Below, piece after piece: positions 10,088-63,098 of a DNA stretch of 64,000 bases; within the stretch, counting starts at the first letter, position 1, and each line of letters starts with the position of its first letter. The position numbers and the translations under genes are program-made. The DNA is taken from NCBI GenBank assembly GCA_009667805.1, contig CM019066.1:6572001-6636000 (forward strand), in the 5' to 3' direction. The notes below the pieces were generated by a model, which made no database searches, was not told the DNA's origin, and was given only the letters and a program-made list of their open reading frames with translations. Source of the stretch: Leptobrachium leishanense. Its lineage: Eukaryota; Chordata; Amphibia; Anura; Megophryidae.

Positions 10088-10646
10088 TGTTATTCAAAGA
10101 GCTGAACTTCCCACCAAATTACACCGAACGGTGAATTTCCCCATACAGTGCAATTTTGTGGCAATTCGCCAAATATTGGTGAATTGCAGTGCAATTCTGC
10201 AGCAGTGAAATCCCCCATAGAGAAGGAATGGTTAATCTACTCCGTGAACCCCGAACAGCAGAGAAAAGTTGGTGAAATGCCTAGATTTTCAGAGGTTTCA
10301 TTCGACCGCTTTAAACAGGTCAAATACCATAGGATTCAATGTTAAAAAAAATGTTTTTATTCTTCTTTTCATTTGTTGCAAAAAAGTCTCTTTAGTAATT
10401 TTTTTAGGCATTTTTTTCTGGTATTTTTCCCAGCGACATTTTTGATTCCCTTTTTTTAAAAAAAAGAAATAATTCTGTAACAGACCTTTTTATTATTATA
10501 CATAGGATCTTATATATTATTTCCATACATTATTTTTCGTTTAAAATGTCTTTTAAAAAGTTGCCTTTGTTTTGTTATATATATCCCTGGTCAGCGGCTG
10601 GTTGTTGTTTTTTGTCGGAAATTTCAGCGCTCTTTGAATAACCCCT
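10088..10646. mobile_element. Repeat with GTTATTCAAAGAGC ends (family F), copy 1
   Basis: The left end GTTATTCAAAGAGC is the reverse complement of GCTCTTTGAATAAC on the right. Internal landmarks are 'ccataggattcaatgt' and 'ttctgtaacagacctttt'. No coding frame is visible. Ten other whole or partial copies occur in the window. Confidence 0.75.
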
Positions 10647-15863: not shown

Positions 15864-16419
15864 TGTGTGTGATAGATACATATGAACATGTGCATATGAT
15901 CATACAAGCCTGAACACCCAACCTTCATTTACAATAGGTGGAGATGGAAATGCAATTGCTCAAAAGGTAACAGAGAATCCATTATTCTTCAGATGGTTAG
16001 TTATTACATAAAAAAATGGATATAAGACAGAAATCTCAGAATTCTTTCACTTTTCACTTCACACGTATCTTCATTCTGCAATGGTGACAGACCCAGACCA
16101 GGGGCTTGACTCTTGAGCCTGTCTGTGCATATACAGCAAATTGGTTATTCCAGCTGGAAGAAAAAAACTCCATTTATTACAATCTCATTTCTTATTAGCC
16201 TTAAGAAAGACAAGTCGGTCACATTCATCCTTTCTAAGGGTTAGCTTATCCATGATACAAAGTCTCTCGATATATTTCTGGTAAAGCAGAGGCTTATTCT
16301 TCATTCCTGCAATTCCTACTGGAATTATTTTTAGAGATATTAGAAACAAGGTCAGTCTCAGAGAATTTACATACAAAAAACACGATTGTAAAAGGAATTT
16401 TTCTTACAACTTAAGGGGG
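15864..16419. other. Interval without a recognised gene or repeat
   Basis: A/T-rich sequence begins with a short TG run next to the Tc1 end. I see no coding frame, RNA gene or repeat boundary. Confidence 0.4.
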
Positions 16420-17124
16420 AAAGACCCCATTCAGCGAGCACCAAAATTGGCCATGAAATTGCACGGAATGATGAATTTTCCCATATGGTGCAATTATGTG
16501 GTCATTCGGCTATTCAGAAAGCTGGCAAATCGCCAAATATTGGCAAATTGCCAGCGAAATATGGTGTCTTCCAGCGGCAGTGAAATCCCCATAGAGCAGT
16601 AATGGTTAATCTTTTCAGAGACAACAAACAGCTGTGAAAAGTTGTCGAAATGCCCTGATTATCGGTGGTTTCATTCGCCAGGCTTAAACAGGCATAGGTT
16701 TCAATGTAAATAAAAAATTCCCTTTTTTTCCTAAAATATTTATCCAACTGTTTATTCTTTTCATTTGCAGCAAAACGTTATTCCGTAACAGACCTTTTTA
16801 TTATTATTCACAGGACCTTAGATATTTCCAGGCACGTTCATTCACGCCTTTTAAAAGTTGTTATTTTTTTCTTTACCCCTGTTCGGCGTCTGGTCAGCTT
16901 TTTTTGGATGCGTTCGGCAGTCTGTTTGTTGGGTCGATCCAGCGTTTTTTCAGATTGAGTCGGTGGTTTGCAGATGCGTTCGACGGGTTTATCGGCAGCG
17001 TTCTGTGCATCAATTCGACGCACTTTGGGAAGCCTGCAGTGAATGCTGAATTCACCATAGGGTCGGCGAATTAAGGATGACGGAGAAAGAGCACTGGAAT
17101 TTCGCTGCTCTCTGAATAATCCCA
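16420..17124. mobile_element. Family F repeat, copy
   Basis: The ends are 'cccattcagcgagcacc' and 'gctctctgaataatccc'. The internal 'ttccgtaacagacctttt' block is shared with the other copies. Confidence 0.72.
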
Positions 17125-18380: not shown

Positions 18381-18616
18381 TTAACACAAAGAAAAAACTG
18401 ATAAGGTGGCCTTGGTCTGGCACATGAGAGGTCCACATAAACATATAAACAAGCAGAGGTCTGCAACACGGAGCCAGGTTATCAGACAAGCCAGGGTCAT
18501 GGAGCAGTGAAATACGGAAAAGTCAATATACCAAAGAAGAAGACAAATACCACATGTTCAGTCATGAAATATATCAGGAACGTGCTAAGGAGTAACTGAA
18601 AAAAATGACAAGGCAA

Positions 18617-19534
18617 CTTCCTGAAAACCAGGAAGCCGTAAATACCCTATCTTCCTGAAAACCAGGAAGCCGTAAATACCCTAACTTCCTGAAAACCAGT
18701 TAGCCGTAAATACCCTAACTTCCTGAAAACCAGTTAGCCATAAATACCCTAACTTCCTGAAAACCAGGAAGCCGTAAATACCCTAACTTCCTGAAAACCA
18801 GTTAGCCGTAAATACCCTAACTTCCTGAAAACCAGGAAGCCGTAAATACCCTAACTTCCTGAAAACCAGGAAACTGTAAATACCCATACTTCCTGAAAAC
18901 CAGGAAGCCGTAAATACCCTAACTTCCTGAAAACCAGTTAGCCGTAAATACCCTAACTTCCTGAAAACCAGGAAGCCGTAAATACCCTAACTTCCTGAAA
19001 ACCAGGAAGCCGTAAATACCCTAACTTCCTGAAAACCAGGAAGCCGTAAATACCCTAACTTCCTGAAAACCAGGAAGCCGTAAATACCCTAACTTCCTGA
19101 AAACCAGGAAGCCGTAAATACCCTAACTTCCTGAAAACCAGGAAGCCGTAAATACCCTAACTTCCTGAAAACCAGGAAGCCGTAAATACCCTAACTTCCT
19201 GAAAACCAGGAAGCCGTAAATACCCTAACTTCCTGAAAACCAGGAAGCCGTAAATACCCTAACTTCCTGAAAACCAGTTAGCCGTAAATACCCTAACTTC
19301 CTGAAAACCAGTTAGCCGTAAATACCCTAACTTCCTGAAAACCAGTTAGCCGTAAATACCCTAACTTCCTGAAAACCAGGAAGCTGAAAATACCCTAACT
19401 TCATGAAAACCAGGAAGCCGTAAATACCCTAACTTCCTGAAAACCAGGAAGCTGAAAATACCCTAACTTCATGAAAACCAGGAAGCCGTAAATACCCTAT
19501 CTTCCTGAAAACCCGGAAGACGTAAATACCCTAA
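18617..19534. repeat. Minisatellite, 27 units of exactly 34 bp
   Basis: Every unit starts CTTCCTGAAAACCAGGAAG or its variant ending CAGTTAG and continues CCGTAAATACCCTAA. Units begin at 18617 and every 34 bases up to 19501, with no length change. The start of the common unit is a dyad (CTTCCTG, loop AAAAC, CAGGAAG wholly or partly pairing). Variant units are interspersed, and units 23-26 form a two-unit higher-order repeat (gctgaaaa followed by cttcatg). Confidence 0.97.
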
Positions 19535-22500
19535 CTGGGAACCATATTGGCGGGGAGGCGAGAAGTGCAGAACTCCCAGGCTCTGTCCCCTCCAGACATA
19601 TTTTTGTCAATGCACAACACCGAGAATGTCAGAACAATGCACCCCCCATTGACACTCCATCAGAACAGATGCAAAACAGGAGTCTCCTTCGTCGCTGGTC
19701 AGATGGGAGACCCGACAAAGCACAGAGAGCTCTACGAAACACCAAAGGGCGTAACAGAAAGATGGCTCTGCTTTGTGAGCTCCTTCCATTATGAGCAGAA
19801 AAGAGGGTTTTTTCATCTGTTGGTTCTGTCTTGCCCTCTTGATATTCAGGATATAATTCTGTAATGACATAGATGGTATTTGACCAGAGTTTTGACTGCT
19901 GTCGGTGCGCTCATAAATCCTGTTTTGACTTATTTGCACAATAAACTGACATTCAGCGACATGCTATTTCTAATATTTGCCGATGTTGGATTAAATGAAA
20001 TCTCTTGGCACTTTGGTCTCTTCACTTCCCCCATGTCTTGCATCAATACTCGCTCAGAAAGTGCTCTCGAGTCAAGACAAGAGCAGCAGTAAATGGATTC
20101 TACCGGCCGGATGAAAACCAGCATCGTCCTATTAGTCACATTTCTCATTAGCCGGGAAATAAAGGCTTTTACATTCAGACTTTCCAAGTATCTGCTCATC
20201 GCACAGCCCTTATTCCGCAGCTGGGATGGATCACATCTTGTAGTGTTACCACCTGGATTTGAACTGTATCTCATTGTTTTTTTTACATTTCCCTAAGCAT
20301 CTTTGTGGCAGCGACATTCACTGTAGTTCCTAAATGCTGTAAAATATCATCAATGTTGCAAGTACAGTGAGCTCTGGCTATCCAGAGAAGTAAAAGTCGG
20401 AAATAGATACGCACAACGTTACCAACCAGGGCCGGCTCTAGTGTTTACGGTGCACGGTAAAATGCGGGTCCACTTTTTTCATAGGAATGAAGGTGACTGA
20501 ATGTGATGGGAATAGGAGGCTGAGTAACGTGGTTGTCATAGAGATTGATGAGGGTGTGTGGCTGGAGTGAACTAGGAGTGGATTTGTGGTTGGGTGAGTG
20601 ACGTAGGAGCGAGAGCGTTAACAGGAGGGGTTTGTGAGGGGTCTTTGTGAGACCCCCGGTGAACTTCTAAGATAGACAGGTACTGCGAATACGTTGCTTA
20701 GAGATACCAAGGACTATTAAGCATGAGGACCATTCGTAGATGTTATGGCACGGATTGGAATCTGACCAGCAGCATGCCAGTGCCTGGGCTGTGACATGCC
20801 AGAGGTCAGGGATGGACAATCCTGGAAAGCCCTGTCTGGTGTAGTAAATAATCACCATGAATGATTTTATATGCCCACTATCATTCTTCCATGAAAGATA
20901 CCCAATAACTACCACTAAAGACTGACGCGACCTGCTACTGCACCTGACATACCTTTCAGATACATGACATCACTCCTGGCGGGCATGCTAAGCAGCTACA
21001 CACCAAAACCACCACCACAAACCGGCACGCATAAAGAGATACAGTATATGGCAAAAACACGGCATCTCTCTGGGTTTGCACACCTGGCAGACATTTTCAC
21101 CTACACACACAGTCATCCCGGTTTGAGCTCAGGTAGCCGTTGCTGCTCGTCTCGGGTGAGCTGTGATGCGGGGAGTCTCTGCCCTTGCAGCAGATCCTCC
21201 CAGTGCCCCCTGACTGGGTTGTCCAGCTCTGGCTACCCGGTGCCCACTTCCACGCCCCCCCCCGGTTGGGCTCACAGGGAGTAACTGCTGCTTTTCTCCA
21301 TTTGCATTACTGGGGAATATACTTCGGTGAGGAGGTAGTGGGGATCAACATTGAACACCAATAGAAATGATAGTGGACAACTTCAACCGAAATAGCGGTG
21401 GTAAACATGGTGAAATCTATGCTAAATAACTTTGGCAAACTATGGTGGAAAGCCCACAGAGAACTAAGCTGGACAACTGCAGCAGGAAATACAGTGGAAA
21501 AGATCAGTAGAATGGTGAAATCTATGGTTGACGTTCAGGGGTCAAGTCCTAAAAAAAATAAGTGTGGCAACTCACCAATCTTTCTGTCCATTCCAGTCTT
21601 AAAGATTACTGAGCGCTGCAGCAGCTGCCGCGCTTCTTTATGCATGACAATGTCATTCCTGCGCCAAACACTGAGAAATTTCATTCCCATGCATTCCCAA
21701 TGTACTTAAATCTGGGAAAAACTCTTAAATATAGACGGTTTTATAAAATTGTGTCTAAGTTCTCTCCTGCTAAAATAGTGAGGGAACTGCGTCCCCAAGC
21801 GTTCCTGGAGAACTTTACCCCTGTTGACGTTCCATAAATTAACCAGTTTCACTGTAGTTGATCCTCTGTAGTTCAGCCAATTAAACACCATTCCTTCAAA
21901 GAAACAATGTTGCTTGGTGCATAATAACCAGTGATAATGGCCAAAACAAAATCTGATTACCTACTGCACACCTGATCTGCTGCAACACTGCAGGGACACA
22001 TTGTATTTCATTCTTCATTGTTAAAGGAAATATCCTAGTGACATTTCACACCTAGGGCATGTCTTTTTAATCTGAATAGCTTTCAAAAGTGTTTTTTTTT
22101 AAATTTATTTATTTGTTTTATGTTTTTTTTTTTTCTTTCAACCTCCCAAAAAAATGCACTTAAACTTGCACTTTGATACACATCCAAATTGCGCGTGAGC
22201 CAGTTGTATGACGGCAGTGGAATCCGAGGCAGATGGTAACACAATTTTCGATAGGGGCACTCTACCAATTTTGTAACGGCAGTGGCCTTGGAACAAAAAC
22301 AAAAAAGCCCACTTTTTTGTCTTTACTTTTACATGATCTCAGTGCATGAGGAAGTGAATTATACAGCACCATTGTTCTCTTTTCTAATTGAAAGTAGACA
22401 AAAGACACGGCTTTACAACAAAAAGGAGATCATTATTTAAGATTCTCTATTTCCTTTGCACATTGTACAAGGTCATATTTGGTATCATAGGAAAGGCCAG

Positions 22501-30271: not shown

Positions 30272-30453
30272 CAGGGTTATTCAGAGAGCGGTGAAAAGCA
30301 GGAGAATGACTGGAGAATGAAAAATTCTAGGTCAAAATAGCCGATTTGGAAAGTGAGATGAAAGGGAGAATTTTTCTGGTTTGGCTATTTTGACCTAGAA
30401 TTTTTCATTCTCCAGTCATTCTCCTGCTTTTCACCGCTCTCTGAATAACCCTG
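30272..30453. repeat. Perfect hairpin: 71-bp inverted arms, 40-nt loop
   Basis: Arms 30272-30342 and 30383-30453 are exact reverse complements by eye. They start CAGGGTTATTCAGAGAGCGG, the terminal motif of family F. This is a short family F derivative that would fold as one long stem if transcribed. A diverged relative is at 47108-47290. Confidence 0.93.
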
Positions 30454-35524: not shown

Positions 35525-35573
<49 letters not shown>

Positions 35574-35574
35574 A
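35525..35574. repeat. AT microsatellite
   Basis: About 25 AT units with one interruption, directly adjoining the TA target of the mariner-like element. Confidence 0.95.
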
Positions 35575-36435
35575 CAGGGTGTCCATAAAGTCTCTTTACA
35601 ATTTCAAAACTTTATTACAAAAGCAAATTAAAAGACAGATAAGTGAAAATTATTACAAAATGAGACGTATATATTTAAGGGTTTTTTTTTTGCCTCATTT
35701 AATACACCTCTATATGGGCGCCATTAGTTGCACGAAGCACATCAAGACGGTACTCGCTTTCTTGCCATGTTGGCTGTAGCTTCCCCTCATCAATGGTATC
35801 AGTGATCCTCTGCTTTAGATTAGTGATGTCCAGTACCTTTGTTCCATACCCCATATCTTTAACATAACCCCATAGGAAGAAGTCGTTTTTCTTTGGCGAG
35901 ACATTAATTACTGCACATGTTTATCTTGACCTTTTGACTGAATACTTGGCACCACAACTACATGACCTTCAAGCAACCATCATTTTCCAGCAAGATGCTG
36001 CACCACCACATTGGGGACTGCGTGTTCGTGGGTTCCTAAAGGAAACATTTCCAGAGCGGTGGATTGGAAGGGGTGGCCCAATTCCCTGGCCGCGTCGTTC
36101 ACCAGATATCCCTCCCCTCCACTTCTTTCTATGGGGTTATGTTAAAGATATGGTGTATGAAACAAAGGTACGGGACATCACTAATCTAAAACCAGAGGCT
36201 CACTGATACCATTACCACCATTGATGAGGGTATGCTACAGCCAACATGGCAAGAAATCCAGTACCGTCTTGATGTGCTTTGTGCAACTAATGAAGCCCAT
36301 ATAGAGGTGTATTAAATGAGGAAAAAAAACTTAAATATATACGTCTCATTCTGTAATAATTTTCACTTATCTGTCTTTTCATTTACCTTTGTAATAAAGT
36401 TTTGGAAATTATAAAGAGACTTTATGGACACCCTG
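35575..36435. mobile_element. Mariner-like element with about 310-bp inverted ends
   Basis: Both termini read CAGGGTGTCCATAAAGTCTC inward, the left one after TA. The inverted match is far longer than a terminal repeat. 35575-35883 is the reverse complement, with few changes, of 36121-36435, and includes part of the coding region. The element is therefore two 3' ends head to head around a short unique centre. Confidence 0.88.
35934..36206 (+). pseudogene. Mariner-like transposase, C-terminal fragment
   Basis: About 90 residues contain FQQDAAPPHWGL (second catalytic aspartate) and WPRRSPDIPPLHFFLWGYVK (third catalytic region), both typical of mariner-like DDE enzymes. The N-terminal DNA-binding part and the first aspartate are absent. 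The mirrored copy on the left arm carries only the last part. Confidence 0.88.
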
Positions 36436-36636
36436 TGTATATATCGCTCCTCTCAATTTGACTTTTATGATTTTATTTTACAAATTGGTATATATAATTT
36501 ATATTCAGCTCTCATGGCTTATTTACAATTAATTAAAGTCTGTTTAATCGTAGGGATATGGAGAAGATATTAAACATGTCTGATGAGATGGCAGTGGGGT
36601 CAGAGCACAGGATAAATTCCTGCCCAGGTCACTTTA

Positions 36637-37060: not shown

Positions 37061-37806
37061 AAGGGTTTTTTTGTTCGGCACACTTTGGTGAGCTGAATTC
37101 ACCAACCCTGTATTAATTCAGCATCCACCGCAGGGTCCCTGTAGTGCACCAAAATGATACGACAAATGAATTTTATAAACTGCCAAAAAAACCACCAACC
37201 GCATCCGATAAACCGAAAAAAGTCACCAGCTGCCAAACAGCGGTAAAAAAAAAAACCCTGTCATTTTTCAAAGGTGTGTAAAACAAAATGAATGCATGCA
37301 AATAATATATAAGATCCTATGAATAACAATAAAAATTTCTGTTACAGAATAACATTTTTAAAAAAAAGCATTTAAAAAAAAAAAAAAAAAATCGGAATAA
37401 AAAATTTCACCTACAAAAATCCAGAAAGTGCCTAAAAAATAAATTAATAAAAGACTTATTGCAGCAAATGAAAAGCATAAACGATTGAAATTAAAAAAAA
37501 TTGTAAAAACAGGAATTTTTTGGTTTTCCATAGAAACCTATGGGATTCACCTGTTTAAATCTGTCAATCGAAACCACTTAAAATCTGAGCTTTTCGCCAC
37601 CTTTTCGGTGCTGTTCGGCATTCTCTGAACAGTTTAACCGTTACTTCTCTATGGGGGATTTCAGTGCCGCCGAATTGCCGTATTTCACTAATATTTGACG
37701 AACTGACAGCTTTTTGAATAGCTGAATGGAAACAAAATTGCACCGTACGGGAAAATTCACTGTTCGGTGCAATTCGGTGGCAAGTTCGGCTCTCTCTGAA
37801 TAGCCC
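37061..37806. mobile_element. Family F repeat, left-truncated
   Basis: The right end 'ggctctctctgaatagccccttt' is present. The left end is lost at the MITE border. Internal landmarks 'tctgttacagaataac' and 'cctatgggattcacctgt' are in reverse order relative to the copy at 10088. Confidence 0.72.
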
Positions 37807-37811
37807 CTTTA

Positions 37812-38349
37812 GCCATATGGTCTTATAGTGAAAAACAGAGAGGTTTGTGAGGGTCCTGAGGACGAGCAATGGCACTAGCGGTCTGCTCTACAGTGGGGCC
37901 CGCTCAGGTCTCACAAGGTTTCAGCTCGATTGTGCCATTACAGGGACAACCGCTCCATATGCAAATCAGCCGCTATCACCCAGAAAGGGAGGCCAGTACT
38001 GAAATGCCAAGGACGTCATCCCTGCACGAGAGGTGCAGCAACCCCCGACGATCGTTTTGGCCTTTTTAGGCCTCGTCAGGAGGGTATAGCTGACACCCCT
38101 CTAGGCGCATCAAGCAGGGGACCACGTCTGAATTAGTTGTCAGGGATGACGTCCTTGGCAGTCAGTACTGACCGCCCTTTCCGGGTGATGACGTCAGATT
38201 TGCATATGGAGCAGCTGTCCCTGTAATGGCACAATTGAGCTAAAACCTTGTGAGACCTGAGCGGGCCCCACCGTGAAGCAGACCACTATTGACGTTGCTC
38301 ATCCTCAGGATCCTCACAAACCTCTCTTTTTCTCGCCATATGGTCTTAT
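37812..38349 (-). mobile_element. Foldback element with hammerhead-like loop and 15-bp flanking repeat
   Basis: The identical sequence GCCATATGGTCTTAT stands at 37812-37826 and 38335-38349. Between them the arms 37835-38024 and 38141-38328 are inverted repeats with scattered differences. The 116-nt loop holds the hammerhead-like motif at 38041-38085. A long direct repeat at both sides fits target-primed reverse transcription rather than cut-and-paste transposition. No protein is encoded. Confidence 0.8.
38041..38085 (-). ncRNA. Hammerhead-ribozyme-like motif in a foldback loop
   Basis: Minus-strand order: ACCCTC (stem I, pairs with GGGGGT with one G-U), CTGACGA (exact CUGANGA core), GGCC-TAAAAA-GGCC (stem II, perfect), AAAA where GAAA is expected, palindrome CGATCG (stem III inside ACGATCGT), GTC cleavage triplet, GGGGGT. 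All conserved core positions fit except G12, which is A. The very short palindromic stem III is like hammerheads that work as dimers. Confidence 0.68.
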
Positions 38350-38929
38350 GAAGCAATCATAGATATATTGTTTAATAACAACTCGGCATCTGAATGCAGT
38401 GTATGAAATATATTAAACAGATGTATTTCCTTTATATTATTCTGTTCGGAACATATAGTGAGTGACCTGACTAATGTCACCCTATGGAAAGGATGAATGG
38501 TATGATTATTCTTCAACAGGGTAACTGTGAATAACGATAATGACCCGTGCGATGTCCGCAGAGCCGCCATAATCATTGTAATGTAATGGAATAGCAATAG
38601 AAAGCAGAAATTACTGTTATTAAACGGTGTCTAATAATACCCCCGTTTTCCCACTCGAACGCACGGAATAAAGTGCACCATTCTTCAAAGGGAATTTATT
38701 TGAAACATGTTGTTACAGCTTCAGATTGCTGCTTTGTTATCTGGAAACTGTCAAGGTGTGAGAAATGTCTTCGCAGGCAGAGACGTAACTACTTCTTACT
38801 GGCCCCGGGGCAAAGGCTGTGCCCTCTCGCCCATACCCACCCATGTGTTTACAGTCAGCATTAAAGGGACGCTGCCGCTAACATAAGCTAGAAATAGATT
38901 AATCGTGCATTACAAACAAAAGGGGTTAT

Positions 38930-42841: not shown

Positions 42842-43020
42842 AAATGTTTCCCAAACCTGTCCTCAGGACCCTCTTACAGGCCAGGTTTTAAGGATCACCT
42901 TCGGGAAATGCAGGCTGAATCCTGCAATCACTGAACAGCAAATCATATCCCCTGTGCTGTGCTTCAGATCTGCAAACCTGGCCTGTTAGCGGGACCTGAG
43001 GACAGGTTTGGGAAACACTG
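42842..43020. mobile_element. hAT-type MITE, CAGTGTTTCCC family, intact copy
   Basis: The ends TGTTTCCCAAACCTGTCCTC and GAGGACAGGTTTGGGAAACA are inverted repeats. The 8-bp flanks CTCTAATG and CTCCAATG differ by one base. Confidence 0.82.
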
Positions 43021-43021
43021 C

Positions 43022-43369
43022 TCCAATGGCTCAGGGACGTTCACGACAGCTCTGGTTACGTTTACACCAGAGTAGGAATAAGACAGCTAACTTTTTTATT
43101 ACTTTTATTTTCTTCCTGTGCTTCATAATCAATGGCTTAACATTCTATTTTCACCGCATTACATGGATTAAATCAATACATTCACAATCAGGTGACACGT
43201 CATATAGTTTTGATATTTTTCCCTATGCACCCGACAACCGGTTAGACCACAATTTCTACCCGTAACGGGAATAACCATAAAACATAACTTTTATTTAGAC
43301 TCCGTTCTTTATAAAAGCATAAAATATCAGACCATGATCCAAACACAAACATAACACAACACATACAGG
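43022..43369. other. Interval without a recognised gene
   Basis: I looked here on the minus strand for the missing helix-5 exon of the receptor and did not find it. No repeat is recognised. Confidence 0.35.
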
Positions 43370-44271
43370 GTTATTCAAAGAGATCCGAATGGCTCCCGAA
43401 AGGGAACCGAACTCTGAAATTCAGCATACGATTACCTTTCTCGGCCATTCGGCTATCCAGAGAGCAGGCAATTCGCCAAATCCTGGCAAATTGACTGCAC
43501 ATACGGTGCCTGTTCGAGGGCAGTGAATCCCCATAGAGAAGCAATGCTTCGTCTATTCAGAGAACAAAAACCAGCAGTGAAAAGTTGCTGAAATGCCCTG
43601 CTGTTCGGTGGTTTCATGCGGCAGATTTATTCAGGCGAATCCCATAGGCTTCAATGTTAAAAATATTCCCGTTTTAATGCAATATCTAATAAACCATTGA
43701 CTATAATATTCTGCAGTAAAAAGTCTCTTTATGTATAGATTTTTCAGGATATTTTAAGCATTATTCGGGGTTTTTTTAAATAAAAATTCAGATTTTTTTA
43801 AATTTTTTTATTTTTAACTTATTTTTTCTGTAACAGGCCTTTTTATTATCATTCATTGAATCTTATATGTAAATTTCAGACATTTTCGCTCAGTAGTTTC
43901 TTTGCAAACAGCGTTTCACTTTTCAAACATTCAAGCGAACTGTTTTTTTAATTTATTCACTCCATTCGTCTGCGGTGTCGGCTTTTTCCGGCGGCTGCTC
44001 TGCGCTCTGATCGGCTCCTGCTCGGGTTTCTCTGGCGTGTTCAGCGGGGTTAATCCAGATGTTTTTTTGGGTTTTCAGCGTGCATTTGCCGGGTTTTGTG
44101 GTTAGTTTTCGGCGGGTTTGCGGCGACCTTTCCCTGCAATTCGGGGGCCCTGTGGTGCTTGCTGAATACACCGCAGGGTCGCCGAAATGGGATCGCCAAA
44201 TCGAACCGAATTGAAGAGAACGAAAAGTCACTGAACGTGCGGTGACTTTTCGATTCTCTTTGAATTACCCC
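43370..44271. mobile_element. Family F repeat, longest copy
   Basis: The ends are 'cagggttattcaaagagat' and 'ctctttgaattaccccg'. The interior has 'ttctgtaacaggcctttt' and a C/G-rich right half near 43960-44200. Confidence 0.75.
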
Positions 44272-49895: not shown

Positions 49896-50976
49896 TGTAG
49901 CGCTGTGGTAAAATCTTGCTGTGGCAGTACCTATTTTTGGCCACAAGATGGAGACTATCGCGATCAGAGATACTGGATATTGGGACTACAATGCCCGGCA
50001 TGCTTTGCAAGAAGACAGGAAGTGGGTGGGGACTGGAGACTTACATCCTCTGCCTCGTGGAGAAAGTTCCAGAGCGCGCCAGGGAAGGGAAGAGAGCAGA
50101 CGCATCGAAGAGATTACGAGAGGGCCTAGGCCAGAGACCAACAGAGACCAAGAGAGACCTGTTAGTCCAGAGAAGATCACCCAAGCTGAGGAGGAGAAGA
50201 CACCGCCGGGATCCAGGCATTGCTGCAGACCGGAGGAATCGAACGGAGAGCAGGCGGTGAGCTGGAAAAGCTGTGTGGAGTCAGACAACGGATCGGCCGC
50301 TAGTATCCCCAGTCAAAATCGGGTGGAGAGACGTCCTGGGTCAGCGGAGCCTAAAGAAATCGTCGGATGGGTGAGAGGCCTCCAAGGCTGTTTTGATTAA
50401 AGGACGCTCTGCTGTTTTCTCTTTAAAGTCCACAGGGCCCCAACTGACTAGTCGAAGACCTTCCTTTAATAAACTCACTGGCCAGTTGAACAGTACCCGG
50501 GTACCACACACATACACAGATACACTTTTCACATTCTGGGACTTAACCTGTGCAGGACTCATTTCCTTTTGCGAATCGGAACGGGGGTTAAAGACAAAGA
50601 TACGTTCCGAATACATTTTTCTCTTTTTCCGCTGCGCGTTTGCCGTAATACGAAGGGATTGTATGTTTGGGGTTTTGCTACGTGTCCCTTTTTCTGAACT
50701 ATCGGGAAATTGCATTGCTTTTATGTTCGGTTGCGAATATTTTATTTTCCGAAATACGAAGCCTCGTGTTTCGTTTCTTTTCCGCTACGCGTTTTACCGG
50801 GATACGAAAATACTGTAATAATACTTGTGAATACCGTGTCTTAACATCTGCTCAAATATTTTAGTAAACTATATAAATATAAAAACTCACAACTGTGTTG
50901 GAGTATATTATTCCCTAGTGCGGGGAGACTGACCCGTGGTTCATTTTCAGCGGCTCCTCCGGGAGTGAGCGCTACA
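49896..50976 (+). repeat. 5' LTR, 1081 bp
   Basis: It begins TGTAGCGCTGTGG and ends GTGAGCGCTACA, an 8-bp inverted terminal TGTAGCGC/GCGCTACA. It is a direct repeat of 57207-58287 with about six substitutions and about six short indels, roughly 98-99% identity. It carries the element's promoter; no TATA box was assigned with confidence. Confidence 0.96.
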
Positions 50977-50978
50977 CG

Positions 50979-50996
50979 TGGGGGCTCGTCCCGGAT
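50979..50996 (+). promoter_or_regulatory. Primer-binding site, tRNA-Pro type
   Basis: TGGGGGCTCGTCCCGGAT begins two bases after the LTR. It differs at one position from the proline-tRNA primer-binding site that I know from gammaretroviruses. The host tRNA would prime minus-strand DNA synthesis here. Confidence 0.8.
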
Positions 50997-51032
50997 CCAG
51001 TCTCTGGAAAAACCGCATCTAAAGGGTTAAAT

Positions 51033-52522
51033 ATGGATCCAGACACTGTTGCCGAGTGGTGTGGGGAGCACAGTAGCCAGTCAGAATGTTGTATAGTTAT
51101 GGATATTCCAGCAGACACTTGGGCTGAAGATCAGATTCGCCAGGCCGTGGCCACGCTAGCACCAGATCATCGGGGGTTAATACTGGACATTGAAAAAAAA
51201 CCCAGATACTTCTCACATGTATGTTCTTCTCGAATGGAGAAAGGGTGTTCCGCCATGTTTTCAGGGCACGAGCGTGAAACTGGCCGAAGAGGTGGAAGTC
51301 CAACTAATTAAGCCAAGTACGCCACGTGGCGAATCCGCAAGTGTTTCCGCGCCTAGTCCGTTGGCCATGATAGGGCCTGAATTTATCGTGGCTATTGGAG
51401 ATCTACTGGCTAAATGTCAGAAAACAAGCCCTCCTCACACTAACTTCGGTTATCGACGGTTAAGAAATTTTACAGGAAACGTACCAACTCCGGCGGGAGA
51501 AGAAACCTTTGAAGAATGGGTGGAACAGGCGATGCAGGCTCTGGATGAGTGGGATGTCCCTGAGGCCCAGAAAAAGCAAAGGATCACCGAGAGCTTAAAG
51601 GGACCTGCGTCAGAAGCGGTGAGAAACCTAAAACTGAGTAGAAAAGATTGTACTGCTTTGGATTATTTAAACGTTCTTGAAGAAGTTTTGGGCGAACTGA
51701 AAAGGCGGCCGAATTGGTATATCAGTACGAACACACCTATCAGAGAAGAGGTGAAAGGATGACCGAGTACATGAGGCGCCTGGATAAGATTCTACACCAG
51801 ATACTCCTGAAGAAAGGGGCCGAACCGGCCGAAGTAGATAAGATCCGAATAAAACAGATCCTGAGGGGCTCTCAACCTCTAGATCCAGTGATGATGCAGC
51901 TGAGAAGCAGAGCAGGTAACCAAGAGTTAAAGTACCTGGAACTGATCCGAGTTGTACGAGAGGAAGAGGCTTTACTAGAAGAGAAATCTTTCAGGCGGGG
52001 GGAAAGGGCTTATGCACAACCTGTGAGACATAACGACGGCCTGCAACCTGAAAGCGACTCTCTAGATACCTATGGATCTGACGAGGACGAACAAGAACAT
52101 CTAGTTGTTTTTAAATCTACAGAGAAGGCTGCCAAAGAGTCGAACCTCCCTGAACGGGGTGAATTGTCCAAGACCGTCAAGAAGTTCAGGAAGCTCAAGT
52201 TGAATTGCAACAAGCGCATGCGGAACTGTGCCAGGTATTGATGAAGGTGACAGAGATGCAGGCAGAAATGCAGAAATTCCTCACAGGTATGCAGACGACG
52301 GGAGTTGCTGTGGCGTCTGGTCCAAATCCTTTAACCAAATCTCAACAAGCAACTACGTCTCCGCTCTCTAAGAAGAGATGTTTCGGGTGTGGAGAAATGG
52401 GCCATTTCCGCGCACAGTGCAAAGGCCGAAAGCCTGAGAAGGATAGAGTCAAGGGACTGTTGGAAGCCCTGGAGGGACTGTTATCTACCTCACCGGCGGG
52501 AAACGCCAGAGGGCACCAGTGA
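51033..52522 (+). pseudogene. Gag polyprotein, PNMA-like, frame-broken
   Basis: Gag forms the capsid-like particle that packages element RNA. The start at 51033 (MDPDTVAEWC) opens an N-terminal domain with the pattern 'AEWC...IVMDIPADTWAED'. The next part has RRLRNFTGNVPTPAGEETFE and EWVEQAMQALDEWDV followed by ITESLKGPASEAVR, as in the capsid domain of PNMA-family proteins. A CCHC zinc knuckle (CFGCGEMGHFRAQC) lies near 52380-52421. Frame changes are at the A8 tract 51193-51200, near 51700-51715, and near 52150-52175. The frame with the knuckle ends at TGA 52520-52522. PNMA genes are known to descend from Ty3/gypsy gag. Confidence 0.85.
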
Positions 52523-55500
52523 AGGAGCAACCTGAGTGCCCGAGGGTTGAACCCCGCTCCAGAAATCAAGCAAAGGCTAAGAGGGCGAAAAGGCCCAAAG
52601 CCGAGCCGACTGTAGAGCCTGCCAGGACTGAAAGAGTCACTCCCTTAGCATCCGGGTCTACGTCATGGGGAAGCAATGCACACCCAAAACCTGCACGGGC
52701 CAAGAAAAAGGCCAGGGTACAACAAACTGGGTCTAAGTGTCCGGATACCGCCACCAAGTTTCCCGACCAACTGATAGGTCCTTCTCCTATTGTGCCAATC
52801 CAAGTGGAAGGAGTCTACACCAAAGCCCTGTTGGATTCAGGGGCTCAAGTGACATTGATCTACAGAGACTTCTACGAGAAACACTTAAAGCACATTCCTC
52901 TGCAAGAATTGAAGGATTTGGAAATATGGGGTATCGGCACTGAGAAACTCCCTTATGACGGGTACCTGCAAGTGAAGTTGGAGATCGGATCTGAAGTCAT
53001 CGGGCAGTCTGGGGGTTGTGATGCATTGGCTATTGTGTGTCCTCGACCCTCGGGTGCGAACAGAAGCTCCCTGATAGTGGGGACGAATACTGACCTAGTG
53101 CGGCGTCTCCTGACGCCTATCGTGTTGGAAGAAGGTTCAACTCAAGGAGTACACCCAATGTTACGTCCGGTCTATCAGAGGATGGTCGAAGAACGAAAGG
53201 CACCTGCCGAGGTGGGAAGACTGTGGAGACTGGGTGGAACAGAGAAGGTTCTGCAAGCAGGAGAAGTAGCGAGTTTCCGGGCTTCAGTCAAGTTGAATGG
53301 ATCGCAACCAGGCCCCTATGTGGTGCTGGGAACCGATTTTGATCATGGGAGTGAAACCGGAGTCGAAGTAATTCCTGAAATAATCTCCACCAAAGCTCTG
53401 AAGAGAACACGAGGAAGAGTCTCGGTCAGTGTGTGCAACGTGACGGATTTTCCAGTAGTCCTTAAAGCACGAATGCCTATTGGGCAAGTAGAGTCTGCTA
53501 CACCCCTCTCTACCGATTCAGGAGGGGGAGGGTAAAGAGATTCCAGATGAAAGATTCTACCCCAAGGACGCTCCTATTTCACCTGAATGGAAGAAACGTC
53601 TTCAGTCTCAAGTCTAAAGTGGAAGGAATTGTTTTCAAAAGATGAGTTCGATGTGGGCCTAGCTAAGAGTACTGAACACCGCATTCGATTACAAGAAGAC
53701 AAGCCGTTTCGCGAAAGATCAAGGCGAGTTCCGCTAGGAGACTTAGATGATCTGCGAGAGCAGCTGAACGAGTTACAGAGAACCAAGGTGATTCAAGAGT
53801 CCAGGAGCCCGTATGCATCTCCTATAGTGTTGGTCCGGAAGAAAAATGGTTCTGTCCGCTTATGCATAGACTATCGCACATTGAACCGGAGAACCATCCC
53901 CGATCAGTATGCCACTCCTCGGATTGAAGATGCCCTACAGTGTTTGTCTGGAGCAAAGTGGTTTAGTGTACTAGACCTGCGAAGTGGGTATCACCAGATA
54001 CCAATGCATCCTGAAGACAAGGAGAAAACTGCGTTCATCTGTCCACTGGGGTTCTTTGAATTCAACAGGATGCCTCAAGGCCTTACGGGGGCTCCAGCCA
54101 CGTTCCAACGGTTGATGGAGAAGACAGTCGGGGATATGAATCTAATCGAAGTATTAGTGTACCTGGATGACATAATTGTGTTTGGGAAGACTCTGGAAGA
54201 ACATGAGCAACGTTTGGAGAAGGTCTTGAAGAGGCTCCATGAAGAGGGGCTGAAACTGTCTCTAGAGAAATGCCAATTCTGTCTACCGTCTGTTACGTAT
54301 TGGGGACATGTGGTCTCAGCAGAAGGTGTTTCAACAGACCCTCGGAAGTTGGAGGCCGTAGCTTCTTGGCCTAGACCCCGAAACGTCACTGAGCTTAGAT
54401 CTTTCTTGGGATTCTGTTCATACTATCGAAGATTTGTGGGAGGATTCGCGAAAATAGCTCCAACCACTGAACAAACTCCTGCAGAAGGAAACCACAGAAG
54501 AAGGCTGCAAGGTCTCTGACAAAAACCCGTCAGCTCCGGGGCCAAGGAAAGCTCGAGAGTCTATACAAGGTGAATGGACCAGTCAATGTGAAGGAGCTTT
54601 CGTAAAGCTGAAAGAGAGCCTAACCCGAGCTCCTGTTTTGGCCTATGCGGACCCTCACAAGCCGTATGAACTACATGTGGATGCCAGCCGAGAAGGTCTG
54701 GGAGGAGTCCTATATCAGGAGTATGGTGGATTGCTGAGGCCTGTGGCGTACGTGAGCCGGAGCCTTACGCCTTCAGAGAAGAACTATCCTACTCACAAGC
54801 TGGAGTTCCTAGCCTTGAAGTGGGCAGTGGTGGACAAGTTGAAAGACTATCTGTATGGAGCTGAGTTCGTGATCAAGACGGATAACAATCCTCTTACCTA
54901 CATCCTTACTACCGCAAAACTGGACGCAACGGGACATCGGTGGTTGGCCGCTCTGTCAGGGTTTCGGTTCAGCCTGAAGTATCGCCCTGGGGTGAATAAT
55001 CGAGATGCTGATGCGTTATCGAGAAGACCCTACACTACAGAATGGACTCAGTTGACTCCAGACGGGGTGCAAGCTTTGTGTCAAGGAACAGAGCGCCGGG
55101 TCAAAGGAGGGATTGAAGCAGAGGCCATAGGAGTTATGGCTGCGGCTGTTCCTGAGTTCTACTGTAACCCTACGCAGTTAAGGGATGAAAGTTTACCTAC
55201 CTTTTCGAGACAGGACCTGAAAGCGGATCAGGCCAGAGACCCTTTAATTGCCTTGACCATAAAGGCCCTGTCTGCAAACCAGCGAGAGATTTTGTTAACC
55301 AACTCCCCGAGTGGAGCCAGATTGGTCTACAAAGAGTGGGAGCGGTTAAAGATGTTGGATGGGGTGGTCTACCGAAGGGGCCCCTCAACCAACTCTGAAG
55401 AGATTCAACATTATTCCTCCCTACTAAACATAGGGAGAGTGTGCTGCGATCACTACATGATGAGCATGGACATTTGGGTGCAGAGAGAACTTTTAAGCTG

Positions 55501-57127
55501 GTGCGAGATAGGTTCTATTGGCCTTGTATGAGGGCTGAAGTAGAAAGCTATTGTCATTCCTGTCTGAGGTGTATTCAGAGAAAGACTCTACCGACCCGAA
55601 CTGCTCCAATGAGCCATCTGCAGAGCCAGGGACCCATGGATTTGGTGTGCATTGACTTCTTGTGCTTAGAGCCGGATGCTAGTGGGCAAGGGAACATTCT
55701 AATAGTGACTGATCATTTCACTCGTTACGCCCAAGCTTTTTCCACGAAAGATCAACGCGCTCCGACTGTAGCCAAGGTGTTGATGGAAAAGTTCTTTGTT
55801 CACTACGGACTGCCAGGAGGATACACTCTGATCAGGGTAGAGACTTTGAAAGCAGACTGGTGGGGCAGTTGTTAGAGCTGTTGGGAATCCAAAAGACCCG
55901 AACCACACCATATCACCCTCAAGGTGATGCTCAGCCTGAAAGGTTTAATCGCACACTGCTAAACATGCTGGGGACCTTGTCGAATGTGGAGAAGCAGAGT
56001 TGGAGTCGTCACATAGCTACTCTGGTGCATGCATATAACAGTACGGAGAGCGATGCAACTGGATATTCACCGTACCGTCTTATGTTCGGAAGAGAGGCTC
56101 GACTGCCGGTTGATTTGGCATTTGGGTTATCTCTAGACCAGACGTCAGTAGCTTCCCATAGAAACTACGTGGATAGACTTCGAAAAATTTGGCTTCTGCA
56201 TTTGAACAGGCCGGTTGACCTCGGGAAACAGGGAGCAAAGAAACAAAAGGAACTATGACTTGAAGGTCCGGATACAAGATCTACAACCCGGTGATAGGGT
56301 CCTATTGAAGAACTTGGGTGTTGCTGCAAGACACAAGTTGGCGGATAGGTGGAGTTCCCAGGTTTACATTGTCTGCAAACAGCTACCAGGTCTACCAGTG
56401 TATCAGATTCGCCCGGATGGAAAGGCTGGGCCTCTCAAGAACTGGCACCGGAATCATTTGTTACCTTTGAGGGAGGCTGTGAGAATGCCAGTTGGGGATG
56501 AACCGCCTCTGCCAAATCCGCCTGTTCCATGTTTGCCTCCTGTTACCCGGTCTCAACAGACTCGGGTTGTCGAAGAGAGCGAAAGGACAGTGAGAAGAAA
56601 GTTTCTGTCTGGACTGGATACGTTCACCGGAGCCTGAAGAGATTACCTCAGTTCCTGAACGATGGGAGAGTAATTTGAGGCCTGAAGCTCCTGAATTCTT
56701 GTTGGAAGTCCCTGAGACTGTTGATATCCCTGAGCCTCTTGAATTTCAGTTGGAAGTCCCTGAGGATGTGGGGATCTCGGTAGTTCCGGAAGCTTACTCA
56801 GGTGATTATAGTTCTATGCCTTCACTGGAGGGATCATACTCTGAAGAAACGTCTGCTCCAGTGATAGAGAGAAGAATTGAGCCAACGCCTATAGTACTTC
56901 CACCTGAAGAGGAACTGATTGAGCCAGAACCAAAACGCTCTGTTCGACCGCCCCAACGACTCACCTACGACTCACCAGGACATAGCACTGAAGAGGCCAT
57001 CACCACGGTGCGGAGGTTGCCCGAAGTGTCTGCTATGCTAGCTGAGGTAGCCCAAAATATGAGTCAACTTGAGGAAGTGTTCCTAACCCACTGCCTGTAT
57101 GCTGCTGAACCTGTACATGTTGTGTAA
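52519..57127 (+). pseudogene. Pol polyprotein: protease, RT, RNase H, integrase; frame-broken
   Basis: Pol copies the element RNA and integrates the DNA. The protease active site LLDSGAQVTLIY is near 52829. Reverse transcriptase occupies about 53620-54460, with RLCIDYRTLN, SVLDLRSGYHQI and YLDD at 54160-54171. RNase H spans about 54640-55020 (ELHVDASREGLGG, KTDNNPL, DADALSR). Integrase has an HHCC finger (HDEHGHLGAERTF, CHSCLRCIQ, about 55445-55580), then CIDFL, a second aspartate region near 55840, and YHPQGDAQPERFNR. A GPY/F-like part (LQPGDRVLLKN...HKLADRW) and an acidic tail end at 57127. Frame changes are near 53530-53620, 54460, 55400-55440, 55815-55860, 56190-56215 and 56640. It overlaps the gag stop in a different frame, so expression by frameshifting is possible. 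Confidence 0.88.
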
Positions 57128-57193
57128 TTGTATTTAAATATTGTGGAAATGTAATGTAACTGTTGTACCTCCTTGGAGAGACCCAAGAGTTTT

Positions 57194-57206
57194 AGGAGGG
57201 GGAGAG
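57194..57206 (+). promoter_or_regulatory. Polypurine tract
   Basis: The purine run AGGAGGGGGAGAG ends exactly at the 3' LTR start, the expected place for the plus-strand primer. Confidence 0.85.
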
Positions 57207-58287
57207 TGTAGCGCTGTGGTAAAATCTTGCTGTGGCAGTACCTATTTTTGGCCACAAGATGGAGACTATCGCGATCAGAGATACTGGACATTGGGACTAC
57301 AATGCCCGGCATGCTTTGCAAGAAGACAGGAAGTGGGTGGGGACTGGACACTTACATCCTCTGCCTCGTGGAGAAAGTTCCAGAGCGCGCCAGGGAAGGG
57401 AAGAGAGCAGACGCATCGAAGAGATTACGAGAGGGCCTAGGCCAGAGACCAACAGAGACCAAGAGAGACCTGTTAGTCCAGAGAAGATCACCCAAGCTGA
57501 GGAGAAGAGACCCGCCGGGATCCAGCATTGCTGCAGACCGGAGGAATCGAACGGAGAGCAGGCGGTGAGCTGGAAAAGCTGTGTGGAGTCAGACAACGGA
57601 TCGGGCCGCTAGTATCCCCAGTCAAAATCGGGTGGAGAGACGTCCTGGGTCAGCGGAGCCTAAAGAAATCGTCGGATGGTGAGAGGCCTCCAAGGCTGTT
57701 TTATGATTAAAGGACGCTCTGCTGTTTTCTCTTTAAAGTCCACAGGGCCCCAACTGACTAGTCGAAGACCTTCCTTTAATAAACTCACTGGCCAGTTGAA
57801 CAGTACCCGGGTACCACACACATACACAGATACACTTTTCACATTCTGGGACTTAACCTGTGCAGGACTCATTTCCTTTTGCGAATCGGAACGGGGGTTA
57901 AAGACAAAGATACGTTCCGAATACATTTTTCTCTTTTTCCGTTGCGCGTTTGCCGTAATACGAAGGGATTGTATGTTTGGGGTTTTGCTACGTGTCCCTT
58001 TTTCTGAACTATCAGGAAATTGCATTGCTTTTATGTTCGGTTGCGAATATTTTATTTTCCGAAATACGAAGCCTCGTGTTTCGTTTCTTTTCCGCTACGC
58101 GTTTTACCGGGATACGAAAATACTGTAAAAATACTTGTGAATACCGTGTCTTAACATCTGCTCAAATATTTTAGTAAACTATATAAATATAAAAACTCAC
58201 AACTGTGTTGGAGTATATTTATTCCCTAGTGCGGGGAGACTGACCCGTGGTTCATTTTCAGCGGCTCCTCCGGGAGTGAGCGCTACA
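57207..58287 (+). repeat. 3' LTR, 1081 bp
   Basis: Same length and ends as the 5' LTR. Differences include 'actggacattgg' for 'actggatattgg', 'gatcgggccgc' for 'gatcggccgc', and an extra AT in 'ttttatgatt'. Confidence 0.96.
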
Positions 58288-61440: not shown

Positions 61441-63098
61441 GCACTCAAGATTATAAGCGGAAGTCCATACGGCGCATCTAGTGCAATTAATAGGTTAATA
61501 AATCAATGGGTATGTAAAATCCATAAAAAACAGTGTAAAATCCGTTAAAAAAACTCGTAAACCGTAGCAGTAAAAATATTATTATTGTAAAGTCAATAGA
61601 AGTGCATAGAGTAAAGTCCAGGTCAGATGTGCAAAAAGTGCAAAAAAGTGCTCAAGTATATAGTAATGGAATACTCAAAAAATGATGATGAAGGATAATG
61701 TGCTGATCTTCTTATAAGTGCTGGTGCTGAATCCTCTTGTCCGTCAGTAATCCTCAAAAAAAGCACATCACAGGAAAAAATGATAGTGCAGACAGTCAAA
61801 ATAAAGTAGGCTCAAATTATAATCAAGATCTAAACCACTCACATTTATGGGAGCCCACAAGATCCCGGCTCGAGGAGAAACAGCCTGCAGCCAAATATAG
61901 GGTGGCACTTCCCTTCTTTCTGTCCGTACTGGAGACTAAATGAAATGGAGAGAATCGGGAGACAGCACTCCCATAGCGTAATACTGCGTATGTGTGGAGA
62001 TGTGGAAAGGAAAAGATGAAGCACACTCACCGATTTTGGAGCCTCGTAATGTCAGGCTCAATATATGTCGCTCTGGGTCCTCTTAGGGTGGGAACCCAAA
62101 CCTCTTTGGCTCCGCGGTGGTGGGTCCAAGTTTCCAAGGAGAAAAAAAGGGTCGGAGAAAGGTGGCAAATGTTGGGAAAATTTAATGGATAGATAAATAA
62201 AAATACAGGACAAGGTCTACCGAGACGCGTTTCGACTTAAAAAAGCCTTCCTCAGTCGGTATAGAAGTAAATGTCCATAAAAAAGTCAGTATGATATCAT
62301 ATATTGAGCCTGACATTACGAGGCTCCAAAATCGGTGAGTGTGCTTCATCTTTTCCTTTCCACATCTCCACACATACGCAGTATTACGCTATGGGAGTGC
62401 TGTCTCCCGATTCTCTCCATTTCATTTAGTCTCCAGTACGGACAGAAAGAAGGGAAGTGCCACCCTATATTTGGCTGCAGGCTGTTTCTCCTCGAGCCGG
62501 GATCTTGTGGGCTCCCATAAATGTGAGTGGTTTAGATCTTGATTATAATTTGAGCCTACTTTATTTTGACTGTCTGCACTATCATTTTTTCCTGTGATGT
62601 GCTTTTTTTGAGGATTACTGACGGACAAGAGGATTCAGCACCAGCACTTATAAGAAGATCAGCACATTATCCTTCATCATCATTTTTTGAGTATTCCATT
62701 ACTATATACTTGAGCACTTTTTTGCACTTTTTGCACATCTGACCTGGACTTTACTCTATGCACTTCTATTGACTTTACAATAATAATATTTTTACTGCTA
62801 CGGTTTACGAGTTTTTTTAACGGATTTTACACTGTTTTTTATGGATTTTACATACCCATTGATTTATTAACCTATTAATTGCACTAGATGCGCCGTATGG
62901 ACTTCCGCTTTTTATCTTGTATTTTGACACATATTTTGGTTGTTTTCTATGTGTTTTTACCATACTATAGGCAGCATTCGACTATTTATTAGCACTACAC
63001 CCTGCACTTTAAATTAACTTATAAATAGGCGCCCACACTGTATAGTGTATATTTATTTATACACACTCCTTGCTTTATCCTAGCACTCAAGATTATAA
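61441..63098 (-). mobile_element. Foldback element with 613-bp identical arms, hammerhead-like loop and 16-bp flanking repeat
   Basis: GCACTCAAGATTATAA stands at 61441-61456 and 63083-63098. Arms 61455-62067 and 62298-62910 are reverse complements with constant coordinate sum, so no length change, and I found no mismatch in the parts compared. The 230-bp loop holds the hammerhead-like motif at 62218-62261. A 172-bp tail (62911-63082) has no partner. Short frames in the arms occur as identical pairs on opposite strands and are not genes. Confidence 0.9.
62218..62261 (-). ncRNA. Hammerhead-ribozyme-like motif in the loop of the large foldback
   Basis: Minus-strand order: TACCGA (stem I), CTGAGGA (fits CUGANGA), one extra A, GGCTT-TTTT-AAGTC (stem II with one G-U), GAAA (exact), palindrome CGCG inside ACGCGT (stem III), GTC cleavage triplet, TCGGTA (perfect partner of stem I). 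The extra A is the only deviation from the consensus. Confidence 0.65.

Follow-up and report, generated by a model that had tools for sequence, protein, structure and literature searches.

Most hammerhead ribozymes associated with eukaryotic repeats belong to type I, and Xenopus tropicalis appears to carry hammerheads in interspersed repeats (PMC3088659). Metazoan non-LTR retrozymes are non-coding elements whose strongly self-paired RNAs contain type I hammerheads with a weak or palindromic stem III (PMC7229834; PMC7761336; PMC4918200). They are arranged in tandem units, have a GC content below 50% (PMC7761336), and are usually 150-400 nt long (PMC7761336, PMC4918200), with RNA circles also given as 150 to over 1000 nt (PMC7229834). 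A palindromic stem III is characteristic of hammerheads proposed to work as dimers (PMC3088659), and the axolotl hammerheads are described as dimers (PMC7229834). The movement of such animal repeats is still inferred (PMC7229834). In Nematostella, type I hammerhead repeats are flanked by 15-bp target-site duplications (TSDs), which were likened to LINE insertion, and highly self-paired animal hammerhead RNAs have been published (both PMC4918200). Minimal type I hammerheads also sit in the pseudo-LTRs of Penelope-like elements (PMC7761336), which are present in amphibians (PMC11167929). Two hammerheads conserved in introns of mammals and birds have further been proposed to derive from an amphibian element (PMC3088659).

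The locus described here lies in a 64,000-nt stretch of the genome of the megophryid toad Leptobrachium leishanense (contig CM019066.1, positions 6,572,001 to 6,636,000; hereafter the window, to which all coordinates refer). It is a foldback, or inverted repeat, of 508 bp (37827-38334) bordered by exact 15-bp direct repeats. A left arm of 198 nt (37827-38024, plus strand) and a right arm of 194 nt (38141-38334, minus strand) enclose a loop of 116 nt (38025-38140). With the direct repeats left out of the alignment, 171 of 198 columns agree and the arms differ by 23 substitutions (16 transitions and 7 transversions) and 4 gap columns, which bears out the inverted arms of about 190 bp reported in a preliminary description of this DNA. 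Their inner ends form a perfect 20-nt inverted pair (38005-38024 and 38141-38160). A repeat finder placed the arms at 37814-38002 and 38162-38350 (85% identity), extending them into the 15-mer because the latter is partly palindromic (CCATATGG; 8 of 12 columns match there). The arm homology itself directly abuts the right-hand direct repeat and begins at most 3 nt from the left-hand one. Five of the first 20 columns at the arm tips differ, three of them as an end gap, a difference of little weight since one inner stretch (37967-37986) is equally divergent (5 of 20 columns). Overall, the differences between the arms show no significant clustering (p = 0.13 for their dispersion and p = 0.37 for the longest identical run). 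The element has a GC content of 54%, and its longest stop-free frame spans 85 codons; with no inner frame exceeding this length, no reverse transcriptase with a GIY-YIG nuclease is encoded within it. Taken separately, the arms show no unusual folding, with z = -0.2 for the plus strand of the left arm and z = -0.5 for the minus strand of the right one.

Each arm also contains the octamer ATGCAAAT (37959-37966 and 38198-38205), and two of its five occurrences in the window fall in the 508-bp element. This octamer resembles that of snRNA distal elements, and newt satellite 2 has an snRNA-type promoter. We do not claim an snRNA-like promoter here, since a proximal element would have to be demonstrated in addition to the octamers. 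A match that spans both arms to the miRNA family MIR169_2 (24.7 bits against a cut-off of 50) was rejected as a generic inverted-repeat effect. The sequence CUGAGGA, seen by eye in both arms, was considered as a further hammerhead and dismissed, as Rfam gives no second one up to E 5.

The loop harbors a type I hammerhead motif on the minus strand (38085-38041). In an Rfam covariance-model search, it matches RF00163 end to end with 38.2 bits, above the curated gathering score of 34, and with an E value of 4.5e-6 for 64 kb and 4227 families; no other hammerhead was found in the window at E values of up to 5. The details read from the sequence in the preliminary description are confirmed. The CUGANGA core is exact and reads CUGACGA, stem I has 6 pairs including one G-U, stem II is a perfect GGCC/GGCC helix, and stem III is formed by a perfect 8-nt palindrome (ACGAUCGU, 38048-38055, minus strand, A15.1 to U16.1), which is followed by C17 and could pair with a second copy. 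The only altered core position is G12, which is replaced by A, and all other core positions read match. Compared to the Rfam consensus, one pair of stem II is changed on both sides, from U-A to G-C, so that pairing is preserved and the helix has been kept. In a full-length hammerhead, G12A slows cleavage some 1e5- to 1e6-fold (the summary of the paper gives 100,000-fold, its text and kinetics about 1e-6), leaving a rate of about 0.0001 per minute at pH 7.4 (PMC2553840). By analogy, the copy described here is probably inactive, although rare natural hammerheads occasionally tolerate or even prefer core changes (PMC3088659). As a C precedes G12 in the consensus, the substitution may reflect ordinary decay of a methylated CpG. 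According to folding computations that leave out tertiary contacts and dimers, the 45-mer prefers another hairpin (-22.7 kcal/mol) to the active fold (-11.8 kcal/mol), and enforcing the active hammerhead fold in the whole element costs 9.2 kcal/mol.

The minus-strand RNA of the whole element, which carries the hammerhead, is predicted to fold with -394.7 kcal/mol (z = -31.9 versus 100 shuffles) and to be 85% paired, whether linear or circular. In this predicted structure, stem I continues past an internal loop into more pairs and then into the arms, with about 40 loosely paired nucleotides on the 5' side. The loop on its own also folds stably on the minus strand (z = -3.1, with 1 of 200 shuffles equally stable). 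Judging from these models, a hammerhead with an outer helix of about 200 bp is the most fitting description of the element, in which the arms would constitute a giant extension of stem I. Since any inverted repeat pairs strongly, the informative test is which strand pairs better. The plus-strand RNA reaches -368.9 kcal/mol, and the 16 arm transitions result in 11 G-U versus 5 A-C oppositions on the hammerhead strand, a lean that is not significant on these counts (one-sided p = 0.105). When mismatches were randomly swapped between the arms, 14 of 250 variants folded as well as or better than the observed sequence. These values give hints of selection for pairing of the hammerhead-strand RNA but do not establish it.

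The direct repeat GCCATATGGTCTTAT, claimed as identical at both outer borders, indeed matches at 15 of 15 positions (37812-37826 and 38335-38349), and its reading as a TSD is supported by its position at the arm ends and by comparison with other foldbacks. Among seven foldbacks examined (taken from 8 groups in the window, setting aside the pair at 1049-1320 and shorter foldbacks), only the hammerhead foldback has an end-proximal direct repeat above 7 bp, the longest in the other six being 7 bp. As a control, 12-mers recurring at a distance of 523 +/- 3 bases were met in 16 of 200000 random placements. The 15-mer may instead belong to the repeat rather than to the target. The left flank (37312-37807) consists of a dispersed repeat that recurs several times in the window (e.g. 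at 10091-10510, 16401-16778, and 43368-43863). Its longer matches mostly stop short of the TSD, by a few to about ten bp; the one at 16778-16401 continues through the TSD positions, where it is poorly aligned. A comparison of the joined flanks with the window gave no clear empty site. By eye, the end of this dispersed repeat (CTCTCTGAATAGCCC) resembles the tip CAGGGTTATTCAGAGAG of another foldback at 30272-30453.

A duplication of 15 bp is not known as the TSD length of any DNA-transposon superfamily, and animal DNA transposons are not known to leave TSDs of this size. The 15-bp duplications suggest insertion by reverse transcription. Neither a poly(A) nor a simple-repeat tail is present at the 3' ends (GTTTTTCACT and CTTTTTCTC), and a scan of the element allowing 2 mismatches revealed no Pol III B box, which speaks against a plain SINE. 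The long TSD (15 of 15 bp) is a feature shared with LINE- and SINE-type target-primed elements, from which the element differs in the missing tail.

A blastn search detected no second copy of the element in the rest of the window at E 0.01. With E values up to 10, three matches were obtained, the longest of 21 nt and the best with E 1.8 and 24.0 bits. This is slightly higher than the 22.6 bits of a control in which the same blocks, reversed, were put in 20 different orders; as every order returned this value, they effectively amount to one control. One exact 15-nt match (GAGGGTCCTGAGGAC) links the left arm (37849-37863) with positions 42859-42873 in the arm of a short foldback at 42845-43017, and may be due to chance (E 1.8). 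Exact-pattern scans of viral and genome contig collections gave 0 matches, and blastn found none in phage and plasmid records; these results say little because the collections are mainly viral, plasmid, and prokaryotic rather than vertebrate. A protein search with the 85-codon stop-free frame for copies within spurious gene models yielded no candidate.

Compared to the metazoan retrozymes, the element is similar in its type I hammerhead with a palindromic stem III, its lack of coding capacity, and its predicted high self-pairing, and it shares the TSD length of 15 bp with one published animal case. At 508 nt, it is longer than the usual retrozyme unit and within the range given for RNA circles. 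In contrast to the tandem units of retrozymes, it is a single unit with one hammerhead, its GC content is higher, and it is an almost complete foldback. As tandem units and a low GC content were tested and are absent, it is not a standard metazoan retrozyme. With the Xenopus tropicalis hammerheads it has in common its anuran host and interspersed occurrence. It resembles Penelope-like elements (PMC7761336; PMC11167929) in the minimal, dimer-type hammerhead but, unlike these, has neither a reverse transcriptase nor a pseudo-LTR arrangement.

Foldback elements and MITEs consist of long inverted arms and a loop. The element agrees with them in this architecture and deviates in its 15-bp TSD and in the ribozyme within the loop. 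The arms alone are ordinary because foldbacks are common in the window, and the interest of the locus lies in the combination of arms, ribozyme, and TSD. The preliminary description had regarded a foldback with a hammerhead between its arms as belonging to no class familiar to its author. We likewise found no such element in the titles, opening lines of abstracts, and text portions of the papers among the matches listed, which were mostly available without subscription. The locus is nevertheless less isolated than had been thought, given the published Nematostella hammerhead repeats with 15-bp TSDs (PMC4918200) and the apparent hammerheads in interspersed repeats of Xenopus tropicalis (PMC3088659).

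Starting from the arms, the hammerhead match, the 15-bp repeats at the arm ends, and the predicted rod, we consider a retro-inserted, non-autonomous, retrozyme-like element to be the leading explanation, at a probability of roughly 0.45. The minus-strand RNA, already containing both arms, would fold as a single rod of about 200 bp with the type I hammerhead as its head and the arms as a giant open stem I. Target-primed reverse transcription by the enzymes of a LINE or a Penelope-like helper could have converted this RNA to DNA and left the 15-bp TSD. In relatives that still function, dimers formed via the palindromic stem III would be the main active form of the hammerhead, which may trim or unitise the transcript, and the present copy would have lost G12 later and now probably be inactive. 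This explanation is favored by a hammerhead above the curated cut-off with a preserved stem II pair and an 8-nt palindromic stem III, by a direct repeat as long as the Nematostella TSDs where the six other foldbacks reach at most 7 bp, by the extent of predicted pairing, and weakly by the lean toward G-U pairs and the swap result. It is at odds with the single copy in the window, the absence of a tail and of a B box, the one hammerhead without tandem units, and the preference of the monomer for another hairpin; the strand bias is also not significant on pair counts, and strong pairing is expected of any inverted repeat.

Ranked second, and appreciably less probable, is a one-off snap-back, in which a fragment of a hammerhead-bearing retrozyme or Penelope-like RNA was reverse-transcribed and the enzyme turned on its own strand. 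The arms would then have been born identical at insertion, the hammerhead would lie in the loop since copying turned around it, and there would be no foldback family. The 15-bp TSD agrees with retro-insertion here as well, foldbacks are common in the window, and the excess of transitions among substitutions that are not significantly clustered is what neutral decay predicts. However, this origin requires about 12% arm divergence after insertion while the 15-bp repeats remained unchanged, for which a simple binomial would give about 0.15, and it leaves the slight G-U lean on the hammerhead strand unaccounted for. Third, and seemingly unlikely, the element could be a DNA-transposon foldback or a MITE whose long terminal inverted repeats enclose an incidental hammerhead and whose 15-bp TSD is unusual. 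The long inverted arms and the other foldbacks in the window, including one that is mariner-like by eye, speak for it. The TSD length has no counterpart that we know of among animal DNA transposons, and the poorly matching arm tips with their 3-nt end gap also count against it, if weakly, given the equally different inner stretch. Because of the long duplication and the type of ribozyme, target-primed insertion of a retrozyme-like RNA fits better than a DNA-transposon foldback. An origin as a decayed piece of a Penelope-like element with an inverted pair of pseudo-LTRs is improbable; such elements occur in amphibians and carry this type of hammerhead, but no reading frame exceeds 85 codons and the hammerhead is single and located in the loop instead of once per repeat. 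Finally, a chance hammerhead within an unrelated foldback could account for the wrong base at core position 12 and is very improbable in view of the E value, which covers the whole window and all families.

If the retrozyme-like explanation holds, the locus might represent an anuran family of foldback retrozymes, that is, hairpin RNAs of about 200 bp with a dimer-type hammerhead cap that are copied by the enzymes of another element and produce TSDs of about 15 bp. We consider the existence of such a family, perhaps akin to the frog repeats proposed as the source of amniote intronic hammerheads, a doubtful but attractive possibility. Long double-stranded RNA would also be expected from a hairpin headed by a ribozyme, a point of relevance to small-RNA silencing. 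Since the locus holds a single unit whose ends are clear and flanked by a TSD, it provides an exact element boundary that can be used as a search query.

The window contains a variety of other repeats. The foldback at 61446-62919 has 622-nt arms at 100% identity, a 230-nt loop, and a longest end-proximal direct repeat of 5 bp; it is either a young foldback or an assembly effect. The mariner-like foldback (35566-36444) has the ends ACAGGGTGTCCATAAAGTCTC and adjoins a TA run. A gypsy-type element (49912-58128) encodes a PNMA-like gag domain, with the same frames recurring near both ends. Its reverse transcriptase (53.6-54.5 kb) shares 99% identity with a Leptobrachium leishanense protein across 80% of the query, and Aquarana catesbeiana is the next frog species named among the 120 matches listed (82% over 74%). 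Domains of hAT-type and DDE-type transposases are present among the 10 frames of the window that were scanned, and a tandem array at 18615-19536 comprises 27 copies of a 34-bp unit with 95% matches.
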